39,449 bases of DNA from Acidobacteriota bacterium (lineage in GTDB: Bacteria; Acidobacteriota; Thermoanaerobaculia; Multivoradales; J023). The position numbers and the translations under genes are program-made. Below, one piece after another: positions 3,806-8,704 of the stretch. The DNA lies in assembly GCA_003697015.1 (NCBI GenBank), contig RFGL01000378.1, positions 1 through 39,449 on the forward strand, written 5' to 3'. Below the pieces are notes generated by a model, which did not search any database, was not told the origin of the DNA, and worked only from the letters and a program-made list of their open reading frames with translations. Every line of letters begins with the position of its first letter. Within the stretch, counting starts at the first letter, position 1.

Positions 3806-5014
3806 GTGAAACGAGTCTACGCACGGGTCAAACCGGAGTTGCTGGTCTGGGCTCGCGAAAGCGCCGGTCTTTCGCGCGATGAAGCCGCCAAGAAAGTCGC
3901 GGTCAAGCCCGCGCGTCTCGCCAGCTGGGAAGCGGGCGAGAGGCGCCCGACCATCCGCCAGCTGCGCAAGCTCGGCTCGGCCTATAAGAGGCCGATCGCG
4001 GTCTTCTATCTGCCCAAGCCCCCGAGAGACTTCCAGGCCATGCGCGACTTCCGGCGCCTGCCGAGCGACGAGCGGGGCTCCGAGTCGCCGGCCCTGCGCC
4101 TGGAGATCCGGCGGGCACGATACCGGCGGCAGGTGGCCCTTGAGCTACTCGCCCAGCTCGGGGAGATGCCACCGCCGTTCAGCCTCCGTGGGCGCCTCTC
4201 CGATCCGGCGGAAGCTTTGGCTCGCAGGGCCCGCGCTGCGCTCGGCATCACCCACCAGCAGCAGGTTGGATGGAGAACTCCCCACGAGGCACTCCATGCC
4301 TGGAGGTCCGCCATCGAGCAGCTTGGGGTACTGGTGTTCCAAGCCAGAGGCGTCGCCGTCGAGGAAATGCGGGGTTTCGCCCTCGCGGAGGGCCTCCTCC
4401 CCGCCATCGTGGTCAACATCAAGGATCATCCTCACGCCCGCATCTTCAGCATGGTCCACGAGCTGACGCACCTGATGCTCCGCCGAGCGGGCCTATGCGA
4501 CCTGAAGGAAGAGGGTCTAACCGGGGCCGAGAAGGGACCGGCGGATCAACGGATCGAGGCGTTCTGCAACCGCGTTGCCGGCGCGGTTCTCATGCCGCGG
4601 GAGGTGCTGCTGCGGGAAGAGCCTGTGCTTCGTGCTCCACCTGAGACCTGGGGCGACGACACGCTCGTCAAGCTGGCGCAGCGGTACCGCGTGAGCCCCG
4701 AGGCCATGCTGATCCGCCTGCTGGCGTTGGGCAAGACCACGGAGCGCTTCTATCGGGAGAGGCGCCGGCAACTCCGCCGTGCTTATGAACGGCGGCAGCA
4801 GGCCGAGACGAAGACCACGGGAGGACCGCCCCCCGATCGGGTGGCGGTGAGCACGGCGGGGCCGGCGTTCGTCCGCCTCGTGCTCGAAAGCTTCTACCGC
4901 GAGAAGATCACCTCGGCCGACGTCGCCGATTACCTCGAGGTGAGGCTGAAGTGGATGCCCAAGATCGAGAAAGCCGTCTTCGGCCGCCGACACGACGCAT
5001 GGGCGCTGGCATAA
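3806..5014 (+). CDS. Xre-family HTH plus ImmA/IrrE (COG2856) metallopeptidase, likely antitoxin
   Basis: A 402-residue protein. It has an N-terminal Xre helix-turn-helix (about 12-70, with LSRDEAAKKVAVKPARLASW) and then an ImmA/IrrE zinc peptidase domain. The zinc motif HELTH is at 218-222, and a downstream Glu251 in the IEAFCNRVAGAVLMP block is the likely third ligand. Proteins of this kind bind their own promoter and cleave or neutralise a partner. The stop codon TAA directly abuts the GTG start of a DUF4411 gene, an arrangement known from predicted type II toxin-antitoxin modules. The start is GTG with AGGAG eight bases upstream. Codon use is less extreme in GC than in the flanking housekeeping genes (for example AAG/AAA runs, CTT, TAT), which suggests horizontal acquisition. 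Its target may be the downstream protein. Confidence 0.88.
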   Translation: MKRVYARVKPELLVWARESAGLSRDEAAKKVAVKPARLASWEAGERRPTIRQLRKLGSAYKRPIAVFYLPKPPRDFQAMRDFRRLPSDERGSESPALRLEIRRARYRRQVALELLAQLGEMPPPFSLRGRLSDPAEALARRARAALGITHQQQVGWRTPHEALHAWRSAIEQLGVLVFQARGVAVEEMRGFALAEGLLPAIVVNIKDHPHARIFSMVHELTHLMLRRAGLCDLKEEGLTGAEKGPADQRIEAFCNRVAGAVLMPREVLLREEPVLRAPPETWGDDTLVKLAQRYRVSPEAMLIRLLALGKTTERFYRERRRQLRRAYERRQQAETKTTGGPPPDRVAVSTAGPAFVRLVLESFYREKITSADVADYLEVRLKWMPKIEKAVFGRRHDAWALA

Positions 5015-5491
5015 GTGAAATACAGCATCGATACCAGTGCGATTCTCGATGGCTGGCGCCGCTACTATCCACCGGACGTCTTTCCCGAACTCTGGGAGAA
5101 GCTGGAGCAACTGATCGCCAATGGAGACCTGCGGGCGACCGAGGAGGTCCTGGAGGAGCTGAAGAAGAAGGACGACGACGTGACCGCATGGGCGAAACGT
5201 CATCCAGAACTCTTCGTGCCCATCGACGATGCGATCCAGATAGCTCTCCAAGAGTTGCTTGAACGGTTCGAGCGACTCGTCAACACCCAGCGCAACCGCG
5301 ACAGGGCAGACCCCTGGGTGATCGCGCTTGCGCAGGTAGCTGGGTGCACCGTCGTCACCGGCGAGTTGCCGAGCGGCAGGCTGAACCGGCCCCGGATCCC
5401 GGACGTCTGCACGAAACTCGATGTCCCCTGGATGAATCTGCTCGCCCTTTTTCGACGAGAGGGCTGGGTGTTCGGCCGCCGGGCGCGCTGA
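5015..5491 (+). CDS. DUF4411 family PIN-like protein, likely toxin
   Basis: A 158-residue protein with the start of a PIN-like nuclease fold: YSIDTSAILDGWRRYYPP with Asp6, an acidic helix EEVLEELKKKDD (43-54), DRADPWVIALA with Asp99 in the middle, and VVTGE (113-117) near the third acidic position. This pattern matches DUF4411, whose members are usually encoded right behind an Xre-ImmA/IrrE gene, as here with zero spacing. By analogy with PIN toxins it would be a metal-dependent RNase that arrests growth when not neutralised. The RNase activity is inferred from the family; the gene pairing and the acidic residues are seen directly. The start is GTG. A hairpin lies 14 bases past the stop, shared with the convergent peptide gene. 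Confidence 0.8.
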   Translation: MKYSIDTSAILDGWRRYYPPDVFPELWEKLEQLIANGDLRATEEVLEELKKKDDDVTAWAKRHPELFVPIDDAIQIALQELLERFERLVNTQRNRDRADPWVIALAQVAGCTVVTGELPSGRLNRPRIPDVCTKLDVPWMNLLALFRREGWVFGRRAR

Positions 5492-5504: not shown

Positions 5505-5519
5505 CGGGCCTCAGGCCCG
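5505..5519. terminator. Hairpin between convergent genes (weak terminator candidate)
   Basis: A perfect CGGGCC-TCA-GGCCCG stem-loop. The loop TCA is the stop codon of the - strand peptide gene, and the hairpin lies 14 bases past the stop of the + strand DUF4411 gene. No T-run follows on either strand, so intrinsic termination would be weak. It may instead protect mRNA 3' ends. Confidence 0.3.
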
Positions 5520-5723
5520 ATCGCGCGGTACGGGGCAGGGGTCGCTGGCGCAGTCGCAGGCGACGCTGGGACAGGTGATGCAGCAGGTCGGTGGATCGAT
5601 GCTCTGCGACAAGCACTGCGGCCACACCGTCTCCTTGCCGATCGCCTGCTGGCCGGTGCCGTGGACCAGGTTGTGGAGGGTTTCGCGGCTCAGCTGGAGC
5701 TTGCGGCGCTTCCTCTTCTTCAT
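5511..5723 (-). CDS. RiPP precursor-like peptide (class I lanthipeptide-type leader, Cys-rich core)
   Basis: A 70-residue peptide. The basic N-terminus is followed by KLQLSRETLHNL (residues 8-19), which matches the KLxLxxETLxxL leader motif of lanthipeptide-type precursors annotated in Bacteroidota and Acidobacteriota. The C-terminal part (34-64) carries seven cysteines (37, 47, 48, 51, 56, 58, 63) among Ser and Thr (39, 41, 46, 50, 53, 60), as expected of a core that could form thioether or disulfide rings. The start is fixed by a strong ribosome binding site, GGAGGAG, six bases before ATG 5723. An extended -10 (TGC TAGAAT) lies 68 bases upstream. No LanB/LanC, radical SAM enzyme, protease or exporter is encoded in the window, so any maturation enzyme must be elsewhere. 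The precursor role is an inference from motif and composition. Confidence 0.65.
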   Translation of the reverse strand: MKKRKRRKLQLSRETLHNLVHGTGQQAIGKETVWPQCLSQSIDPPTCCITCPSVACDCASDPCPVPRDRA

Positions 5724-5791
5724 CGCTCTCCTCCGCCAGGACGTCGGAACGTTCACTTGTCCGCGCAAACCGGTCACGCGCGTGAAGACTG

Positions 5792-5800
5792 ATTCTAGCA
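5792..5800 (-). promoter_or_regulatory. Extended -10 promoter for the RiPP-like peptide gene
   Basis: On the - strand TGC is followed by TAGAAT (5 of 6 to TATAAT). Transcription would start near 5785, giving a leader of about 60 bases. There is no recognisable -35. It lies between trkH and the peptide gene, so the peptide need not depend on trk transcription. Confidence 0.5.
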
Positions 5801-5873: not shown

Positions 5874-7325
5874 CTACCGCCGCCAGAAGGCGAGGGTGAA
5901 GAGGGCGGCGATGGAGTAGACCTCGAGCCGGCCGAGCCACATCAGGAGCACCATGAGGAGCTTCTGCCAGCCGGCGAAGAGGGCGAAGCTCTGGGTGGGG
6001 CCGACGCCTTCGAGGCCGGGGCCGATGTTGCCGAGGGTGACGATGGCGGCGGTGGCGGAGGTCCTGAGGCCGAAGTCGCCGATGGTCAGGAGAAGGGTGG
6101 CGAGGCCCCAGGTCGAGAAGTAGAGGATGAAGATCCCCATGACGCTCCGCACCACCGACTCCGGCACCGCCTTGCCGCCGACGAAGATGGCGATCACCGC
6201 CGACGGGCTGAAGATCAGCCGCGCCTCGCGCAGCGCCGCCTTGAGGCCGATCACCATGCGGATGATCTTCAGCCCGCCGGCGGTCGAGCCGGCACAGCCG
6301 CCGATGAACATCAACGCCACCAGCAGACCGCGGGCGAGCGTCGGCCAGCGGTCGAAGTCGGCGGTGGCGAAGCCGGTGGTGGTGAGGATCGATACCACCT
6401 GGAAGACGGCATCGAGGAGCGCCCGGCCGGCGCCGTGGCCGTCGTAGGCGCCGTTCACCCACAAGTCGCCGGCGACCCACAGGCCGAAGATCAGGATCAA
6501 GGTGACGTAGATGCGCCACTCCGGATCCTGCCACAGGCGGCGGCCGCGGTGGCGCAGGAAGCGATAGTAGAGCGAGAAGTTGATGCCGGCGAGCACCATG
6601 AAGACGATGATCACCGCCTGCGCCAGCGGGCTGAAGGCGCCGGCGGAGGCGGCGCGGGGCGAGAAGCCACCGGTCGACAGGGTCGAGAAGGCGTGGGTGG
6701 TGGCGTCGTAGAGATCGAGGCCGCAGAGCAGCAGCAACGCCACCTGGGCGCCGGTCAGCAGCATGTAGGTGCGCCAGAGGACGGCGGCGGTGTCGCGTAC
6801 CCGCGGGTGCAGGGTCTCCTTGGTCGGCCCCGGCACCTCGAGCTTGTAGACGAATCGCGCACCGGCGCCGAGCTCGGGCAGGAGCGCGACGAAGAGGACG
6901 ATGATGCCCATGCCGCCGAGCCACTGGGTGAAGCTGCGCCAGAAGAGGATGCCGCGGCCGGCGGCCTCGATGTCGGTGAGGATCGAGGCGCCGGTGGTGG
7001 TGAAGCCCGAAGCCGACTCGAAGAGCGCGTCGATCGGGCTGCTGACGGTTCCGGTCAGGAGGTAGGGCAGGGCGCCGAAGAGCGATGCCAGAGCCCAGCC
7101 GCCGACCACGATCAGGATGCCCTCGCGGCGGTAGAGATGGCCGCCGCCGCGGCCGAGGAGGGCCAGCACCGCACCGCAGGCGCCCGTCGCCAGCGCCGTG
7201 CTGAGGAAGGCGCCGGCCGCATCCCACTCGCCGTAGATCGCCGCCACCACGGCGGGCAACGTCACCGCCACCGCCAGGATCAGCAGCAGGCGGCCGACGA
7301 AACGCAGCACCGGCCGGATGCTCAC
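5874..7325 (-). CDS. trkH: TrkH-type potassium uptake membrane subunit
   Basis: The channel-like subunit of a Trk/Ktr potassium importer in the inner membrane, 483 residues with about ten hydrophobic segments. The four pore loops carry the family's filter signatures: SGFTTTGAS, STLSTGGFS, LTTTGFATADF and TLGNIGPG, each with the conserved Gly. GGCAGSTAGGLKIIR is the other typical TrkH block. The start is GTG 7325, which overlaps the TGA stop of trkA as GTGA, so translation is coupled to trkA. This explains why the product of the same frame continues upstream without being real. The gene has the normal family length and no defects are visible. Confidence 0.95.
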   Translation of the reverse strand: MSIRPVLRFVGRLLLILAVAVTLPAVVAAIYGEWDAAGAFLSTALATGACGAVLALLGRGGGHLYRREGILIVVGGWALASLFGALPYLLTGTVSSPIDALFESASGFTTTGASILTDIEAAGRGILFWRSFTQWLGGMGIIVLFVALLPELGAGARFVYKLEVPGPTKETLHPRVRDTAAVLWRTYMLLTGAQVALLLLCGLDLYDATTHAFSTLSTGGFSPRAASAGAFSPLAQAVIIVFMVLAGINFSLYYRFLRHRGRRLWQDPEWRIYVTLILIFGLWVAGDLWVNGAYDGHGAGRALLDAVFQVVSILTTTGFATADFDRWPTLARGLLVALMFIGGCAGSTAGGLKIIRMVIGLKAALREARLIFSPSAVIAIFVGGKAVPESVVRSVMGIFILYFSTWGLATLLLTIGDFGLRTSATAAIVTLGNIGPGLEGVGPTQSFALFAGWQKLLMVLLMWLGRLEVYSIAALFTLAFWRR

Positions 7326-8704
7326 CGGGCCCCCGCCTCGCGCCCCGGAAAGAGCAGGTTGATGGTCGGCATCTCCGCCTTCTGGACGAAGAGGATCACC
7401 GTGTCCCCGGCCTCCAGCCGGTCCTTGCCGCGGGGCACGAAGACGCGCTCGCCGCGCACCACCGCGCCGACGATCACGCCGCGCGGCGGGTTGAATTCCG
7501 CCAGGGTGACGCCGGCCGCCGGACTGGCCTCGTGCAGCCGCCGTTCCAGCACCTCGGCCGCGCCGCGCTCCAGCGACACGAGGTTGGCGCTGTAGCCCTG
7601 GTCGACGTACTCCTTGATCCGCTGGTAGGCGATGGCCCGCGGCGAGACGATCTCCATCAGGCCGAGCTTGCGCCACAGGTACGAGGTCTCGCCCCGCTGC
7701 ACCAGGGCGACGACCTGCGGCACCCCGAGCTCGCGCGCCAGCAGGCTGGCCATCAGGTTGCGCTCGTCCTGGCCGGTGAGGGCGACGAAGACCTGGGCGC
7801 GGGGCACGTCTTCGGCCCGCAGCAGGGCGACGTCGGTGGCGTCGCCGTGCAGCACCTCGACGCCGGGCAGCTGGGCGGCCAGCTCCTGCGCCCGCCGCAG
7901 GTCGCGTTCGATCAACTTGACGCGCTCGACCCGGCCGTTGGCGCTCTGACCGAGGAGCGCCTGGGCGACGGTCTCGCCGGTGCGGCCGCCCCCGGCGATG
8001 ACCACCACCTTGCGATCCCGGGGTCGCGAGCTGAGCCGGCGCTCGACGTCGCCGATGACCTCGGTGGAGGCCAGGATCAGGGCGTCGTCGCCGGGCTGGG
8101 CGACGTCGTCGCCGCTGGGGACGGTCAGCTCGTCGCCGCGCTGAAACGCCACCACCAGACAGCCTTCGGGCAGCTCGATCTCGCGCAGCGGCCGTCGGGT
8201 CAAAGGCGACTGGTCGTCGAGGTGGATCTTGCGCAGCTGCACCTTGCCCTGGGCCAGATACTCCACCGCCACCGTGTTGTGGCCGAGGATGTGGTTCAGG
8301 ATGTGGGTGGTGGCGAGGAGCTGGGTGGAGAGCAGCAGGTCGGCGCCGAAGACCTCCTCATACAGTTGCCGGTGGGTGGTGATGTCCTCCGCCACGCCGA
8401 CCCGCACCACCGTCCGCTTGGCCCCCAGGCGGCGGGCGAGAACCGCCGCCGCCAGGTTGGCCTCGTCCGACGACGACACCGCCATGAAGAGGTCGCAGGT
8501 CGCCACCCGCGCCTCCTTGAGCACCGGTACGTGGGCGCCGTTGCCCCCCACCACCGCGACGTCGAGCTCCTCCTCGACCCGCGTTCGCTTGATCGGATCG
8601 ATCTCGATCACCACCACGCTGTGGCCGTGCTGGGAGAGGGTGCGGGCGAGGTGCAGCCCGACTTCGCCCACCCCCATCACCACATAACGCCGTTTGTCGT
8701 CCAT
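7322..8704 (-). CDS. trkA: TrkA potassium uptake regulator with two RCK repeats
   Basis: The cytoplasmic NAD(H)-binding gating subunit that sits under TrkH. Its 460 residues contain two RCK units. The first Rossmann motif is GVGEVGLHLA near residues 11-20 with an acidic strand end (VVVIEIDP). The second is AGGGRTGETVAQALL near 232-246 with VKLIERD. Each is followed by a TrkA_C-like domain (EIELPEGCLVVAFQRGDELTVPSG and VTLAEFNPPRGVIVGAVVRG regions are diagnostic). ATG 8704 is preceded by GGAGGA at five bases. It is the first gene of a two-gene operon, overlapping trkH by four bases. Confidence 0.95.
   Translation of the reverse strand: MDDKRRYVVMGVGEVGLHLARTLSQHGHSVVVIEIDPIKRTRVEEELDVAVVGGNGAHVPVLKEARVATCDLFMAVSSSDEANLAAAVLARRLGAKRTVVRVGVAEDITTHRQLYEEVFGADLLLSTQLLATTHILNHILGHNTVAVEYLAQGKVQLRKIHLDDQSPLTRRPLREIELPEGCLVVAFQRGDELTVPSGDDVAQPGDDALILASTEVIGDVERRLSSRPRDRKVVVIAGGGRTGETVAQALLGQSANGRVERVKLIERDLRRAQELAAQLPGVEVLHGDATDVALLRAEDVPRAQVFVALTGQDERNLMASLLARELGVPQVVALVQRGETSYLWRKLGLMEIVSPRAIAYQRIKEYVDQGYSANLVSLERGAAEVLERRLHEASPAAGVTLAEFNPPRGVIVGAVVRGERVFVPRGKDRLEAGDTVILFVQKAEMPTINLLFPGREAGAR

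Follow-up and report, generated by a model that had tools for sequence, protein, structure and literature searches.

Introduction

Class I lanthipeptide precursors with an LxLxKx5L leader have been described in Bacteroidetes, often together with a GG cleavage site and a C39 protease (Walker et al. 2020, PMC7268733). Prochlorosin genes that are distant from LanM escaped the method used in that study (PMC7268733), while procA/syncA genes can occur scattered as single genes (PMC10783134). The survey of Walker et al. would miss orphan precursors because it looked around enzyme genes (PMC7268733). The same is true of lanthipeptide surveys in general: since they begin at an enzyme gene and search around it, precursors that stand alone are missed.

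The gene considered here stands alone in this manner. It is probably an orphan class I lanthipeptide precursor, and the comparisons presented below suggest that it would be modified in trans by a shared LanB/LanC set encoded elsewhere in the genome.

A lanA-like gene beside trkH

The window, which is the whole stretch of DNA analysed, is one entire contig of 39,449 bases from a metagenome-assembled genome (5.34 Mb, 500 contigs, 96% complete). An open reading frame of 70 codons was confirmed on the minus strand from 5723 to 5511. The initial annotation reported the peptide correctly, with its leader KLQLSRETLHNL and seven Cys, and named no strand; translation of 5511-5723 on the plus strand does not produce it. 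The encoded peptide of 70 residues is MKKRKRRKLQLSRETLHNLVHGTGQQAIGKETVWPQCLSQSIDPPTCCITCPSVACDCASDPCPVPRDRA. The features of the locus are as follows.

3806..5014 (+): HTH + M78 (ImmA/IrrE-like) partner of DUF4411
5015..5491 (+): DUF4411 (PIN-like) toxin gene, convergent to the precursor (Pfam 4e-42)
5511..5723 (-): orphan lanA-like gene encoding a precursor of 70 aa; start codon ATG at 5723, stop codon at 5513-5511
5514..5630 (-): core (putative), beginning near residue 32, with 7 Cys and 6-7 Ser/Thr; boundary inferred from alignment
5667..5723 (-): leader N-terminus MKKRKRRKLQLSRETLHNL, LxLx[K/R]x5L class, partial match to NF038153 (12.6 bits)
5727..5735 (-): GGAGGAGAG, region of the ribosome binding site, immediately 5' of the ATG
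5792..5800 (-): extended -10-like TGCTAGAAT, seen by eye, promoter unconfirmed
5874..7343 (-): trkH, upstream and on the same strand as the precursor, stop at 5874, 65-70% identity in six family genomes

The GC content at codon positions 1, 2 and 3 of the precursor gene is 0.56, 0.55 and 0.90, which is typical for a GC-rich coding gene. A good ribosome binding site, GGAGGAG, lies a few bases 5' of the ATG. The gene had also been credited with an extended -10 promoter of its own. While the TGCTAGAAT element is present, no sigma-70 promoter pair upstream of the gene passed a consensus scan, and a promoter at this position is thus unproven. Counted from its WPQC start, the core contains seven Cys and the six Ser/Thr reported previously, or seven Ser/Thr if ETV is included, which is sufficient for the formation of (methyl)lanthionine.

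Both of the flanks named in the initial annotation, trkH and the DUF4411 toxin gene, were confirmed. That no modification enzyme lies near the gene can be extended to the contig: no LanB, LanC or C39 match was obtained across its 39 kb, and no RiPP enzyme domain was found in 20 further long open reading frames, which are ordinary genes (gyrA, dnaA, dnaN, recR and others) or have no Pfam match. In six genomes of the family, the peptide, the DUF4411 gene and its HTH-M78 partner are all missing beside trkH. Since the site is empty in these relatives, the HTH-M78 and DUF4411 pair (window 3806-5491) and the peptide may have arrived as an insertion. A role for the peptide as an antitoxin, or as a third part of the DUF4411 module, was considered and set aside given its opposite strand, convergent orientation and lanthipeptide leader.

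Leader and cleavage site

The leader of the window peptide belongs to the LxLx[K/R]x5L class, to which residues 9-19 (L-Q-L-S-R-ETLHN-L) conform. Its score against the NCBIfam model NF038153 is 12.6 bits, which is under the cut-off of 22 bits, and the second half of the leader has diverged from the model. The expected cleavage site also differs. At residues 29-30, the window peptide has GK (AIGKE) where its siblings carry GG. Among the 73 members found with this leader, a GG or GA site is present in 65; seven others besides the window peptide lack it, including one (L064) that adjoins LanB and LanC. Since GK replaces the GG of the siblings, cleavage of the window peptide by a C39 peptidase is doubtful.

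A search for an orthologue of the window peptide in related genomes, made by scanning contigs with the peptide, by tblastn, and at the trkH site of six family genomes, identified none. Many tblastn matches with E above approximately 0.01 were rejected as chance frames in which the leader is missing. The only genome of the same genus examined (81% complete) contains neither LanB nor the window peptide. A comparison with the two f6 peptides that resemble it most gave dN/dS values of 0.94 and 0.64, but the underlying alignment was poor. A dN/dS near 1 had been proposed as grounds for refutation; the values for dispersed members of the class, given below, are well below 1, while for the frame of the window gene no orthologue was found for comparison. 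Similarly, homologs with a conserved leader exist in related genomes at the level of the class, but no orthologue was found for the window peptide itself.

The altered cleavage site, the divergent second half of the leader, the absence of an orthologue and the absence of both the gene and the toxin-antitoxin pair beside trkH in six relatives are what might be expected of a decaying precursor, that is, a lanA gene acquired horizontally or duplicated beside the DUF4411 pair that has lost its cleavage site and is not matured. This reading is unlikely. The frame is open, the ribosome binding site is good, GC at the third codon position is 0.90 and all seven Cys are retained. Moreover, the lack of GG or GA is shared with the seven members noted above, one of which sits beside LanB and LanC.

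LanB, LanC and sibling precursors in the same genome

A search of the 5.34 Mb genome with a DNA pattern for KLxLxxETL produced three matches and none in a reversed control. One match is the window gene, the other two lie at the end of contig C428, and all three begin short Cys-rich open reading frames. The C428 precursors (60 and 76 aa) have GG sites and reach 22.8 and 23.5 bits, above the cut-off of NF038153, which describes a class I lanthipeptide leader. They lie beside a gene for an ABC transporter that includes a C39 peptidase, and C428 encodes an HlyD-type protein as well. The single full-length LanB of the genome is encoded on contig C164 (5,975 bases; PF04738, E = 9e-176; PF14028, E = 3e-68), where it is flanked by two LanC genes. 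Both are short contigs of a metagenome-assembled genome for which mis-binning is possible, though their composition fits (tetranucleotide correlation with the window, r = 0.98 for C164 and 0.99 for C428). Because relatives keep a C39 transporter, LanB, LanC and precursors with the same leader grouped, a single cluster has probably been split between C164 and C428. Thus, of the RiPP enzymes for which the initial annotation recommended a genome search, LanB and LanC are present, and its suggestion of a distant LanB-type enzyme is supported at the sequence level by a full-length LanB and two LanC on C164 and siblings with the same leader on C428.

The first of the two LanC genes on C164 (L039, 45-1436, plus strand) contains one in-frame TGA at 1110-1112. 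It falls exactly where the CHG motif has the Cys that serves as a zinc ligand, and the remainder of the gene is intact. This is the sole stop-bearing sequence among LANC_like matches in 149 genomes. A tRNA-Sec is present in the genome, and the RNA downstream of the TGA folds no better than shuffled sequences. The TGA may represent a selenocysteine, an error or a pseudogene.

A second set of genes resembles those of class V lanthipeptides. It occupies contig C158 (L041, 1-3622, minus strand) and probably continues on C153 (L040, 1-854). The set comprises an LxmK-like kinase with an APH domain (NF038156, 88 bits, under its cut-off), a HopA1-domain protein (1.5e-35), a LanC split by the contig ends, and a putative precursor of 297 aa with ten tandem CxTxxTAxPTxC cores. 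With its ten cores, this class V-like precursor is possibly a more unusual find than the gene in the window. With such a set present, the window peptide could in principle be modified by its kinase, HopA1 protein and LanC, or by a radical SAM enzyme. Such a route is very improbable. The class V-like set has a ten-core precursor of its own, and the leader of the window peptide resembles those of LanB-linked precursors, not that of the C158 precursor. As for radical SAM enzymes, the sole match of any sibling to a family of that type was weak (TIGR04149, 0.06).

Dispersed precursors in related genomes

The association of the leader with LanB was examined in 99 genomes, in which a LanB genome was defined by a LanB match with E < 1e-100. 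Three or more leader matches were obtained in 7 of 13 LanB genomes and in none of 86 genomes without LanB (Fisher p = 1.2e-7). The highest counts were found in G011 (29), G032 (27), G019 (14) and G026 (9), with the others having at most five. In other families, a precursor with the same leader lies within about 5 kb of most LanB loci, which ties the leader to LanB.

These results bear on another reading of the window peptide. Seven Cys in a product with no enzyme genes nearby could describe a peptide that forms disulfides or binds metal, either in the cytoplasm or after secretion, without ever being a LanB substrate; the likeness of its leader would then be inherited only. Yet the leader is almost identical to those of LanB-adjacent precursors, multiple leader matches are confined to LanB genomes among the 99, and the N-terminus is strongly basic with no evident signal peptide. 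An unmodified peptide of this kind is improbable, and the preferred reading remains that of an orphan class I precursor.

By reading loci in four genomes, 70 short Cys-rich open reading frames with this leader were found. Thus, the peptides sharing a leader that the initial annotation suggested looking for occur in related genomes as well as on C428. Across 73 precursors, the L, L, E, T, L and L positions of the leader are nearly invariant, while the cores are variable with a median of five Cys. G011, which belongs to the same order within Thermoanaerobaculia, Acidobacteriota, and has long contigs, encodes 32 precursors, of which 30 have no match to the LanB, LanC or C39 proteins of the window genome within approximately 5 kb. 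Several contigs of G032 and G019 do not span the 5 kb taken as flank, making their orphan counts less firm than that of G011. A lone precursor had been called unexpected, but this comparison shows that standing alone is common in this order. Many precursors with one leader that are far from enzymes are found in these relatives; the window genome, by contrast, has one orphan precursor and two others only. In G032 (L110, contig C540, 1165-4912), three tandem LanC-like genes lie between two precursors.

Some dispersed precursors can be compared directly. L097 (G011), L101 (G026) and L110 have one core in common, of the TSCTYPCDCPTGCSDEQAC type, with pairwise dN/dS of 0.19-0.30. L097 and L101 are orphans with unlike flanks while L110 adjoins LanC genes; one core can occur with or without adjacent enzymes. 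A pair of orphans in G011 (L060, contig C69) is syntenic with an orphan in G032 (L056, contig C657), with flanks that are 72-80% identical. Leader and Cys pattern are kept in these orphans and dN/dS is 0.46-0.62. The low dN/dS and the retained leader and Cys pattern show that purifying selection acts on the dispersed genes. The L060/L056 subfamily, with the core P-x-C-T-x(3)-S-D-C-x-x-C-T-x(3)-D-x-C-P and some members without GG, is among the nearest in sequence to the window peptide.

Proposed maturation

For recognition, dehydration, cyclization, cleavage and export, we infer the following course from the gene, its leader, their co-occurrence with LanB and the enzymes present. Class I LanB enzymes use Glu-tRNA. 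The leader MKKRKRRKLQLSRETLHNL would be recognized by the single full-length LanB encoded on another contig, which would dehydrate Ser/Thr of the core in trans by leader-guided glutamylation and elimination. An adjacent LanC would then use a number of the seven Cys to close thioether rings. Removal of the leader and export of the product may be performed by the C39-type ABC transporter of C428, or by another protease and exporter. Cleavage is the weak point of this pathway, as the GG or GA sought by a C39 peptidase is replaced by GK. The window peptide would belong to a group of scattered precursors that act in trans with shared enzymes.

On balance, we lean towards a view in which Thermoanaerobaculia run a prochlorosin-like combinatorial library in which a few LanB/LanC sets modify dispersed, hypervariable precursors, as many as about 30 in one genome. 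The window peptide would then be a lone member of this system, and the set in its own genome a small one.

Comparison with known systems

The window precursor is most similar to the LxLxKx5L class I precursors (NF038153, lant_leader_L1a) in its leader motif, with R in place of K, and in the link to LanB and LanC. Its siblings further share the GG site and a C39 transporter. The window precursor differs in being far from LanB, in its score under the cut-off, in lacking GG, and in coming from Acidobacteriota. Pinensin and the Pedobacter lanthipeptides are class I products known from gene clusters. They come from Bacteroidota, the phylum in which the leader class was described (PMC7268733), and the literature examined describes no dispersed set for them. 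Dispersed class I precursors, including any from Acidobacteria, were likewise absent from the literature searched, which is weak evidence given its partial coverage.

The prochlorosins and synechococsins of Prochlorococcus and Synechococcus (ProcM/SyncM) provide a parallel in layout, with scattered precursors, a conserved leader, variable cores and few shared enzymes. The hallmark of a true prochlorosin, a class II LanM with a Nif11-type leader, does not apply here, where the enzymes are a class I LanB and LanC, the leader is of the L1a type, and L1a-type precursors adjoin LanB in several genomes. Enzyme promiscuity has been shown for ProcM/SyncM, whereas the LanB described here is presumed to share it. 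What appears to be new is a dispersed layout like that of the prochlorosins but with class I enzymes. If scattered precursors are indeed substrates of class I enzymes, estimates of what these soil Acidobacteriota produce chemically are several-fold too low, and a LanB that accepts a wide range of cores would be valuable for engineering. A promiscuous synthetase with dispersed substrates is described for the prochlorosins, which are class II; with a class I example, the purpose of such libraries could be asked in a second, unrelated lineage.
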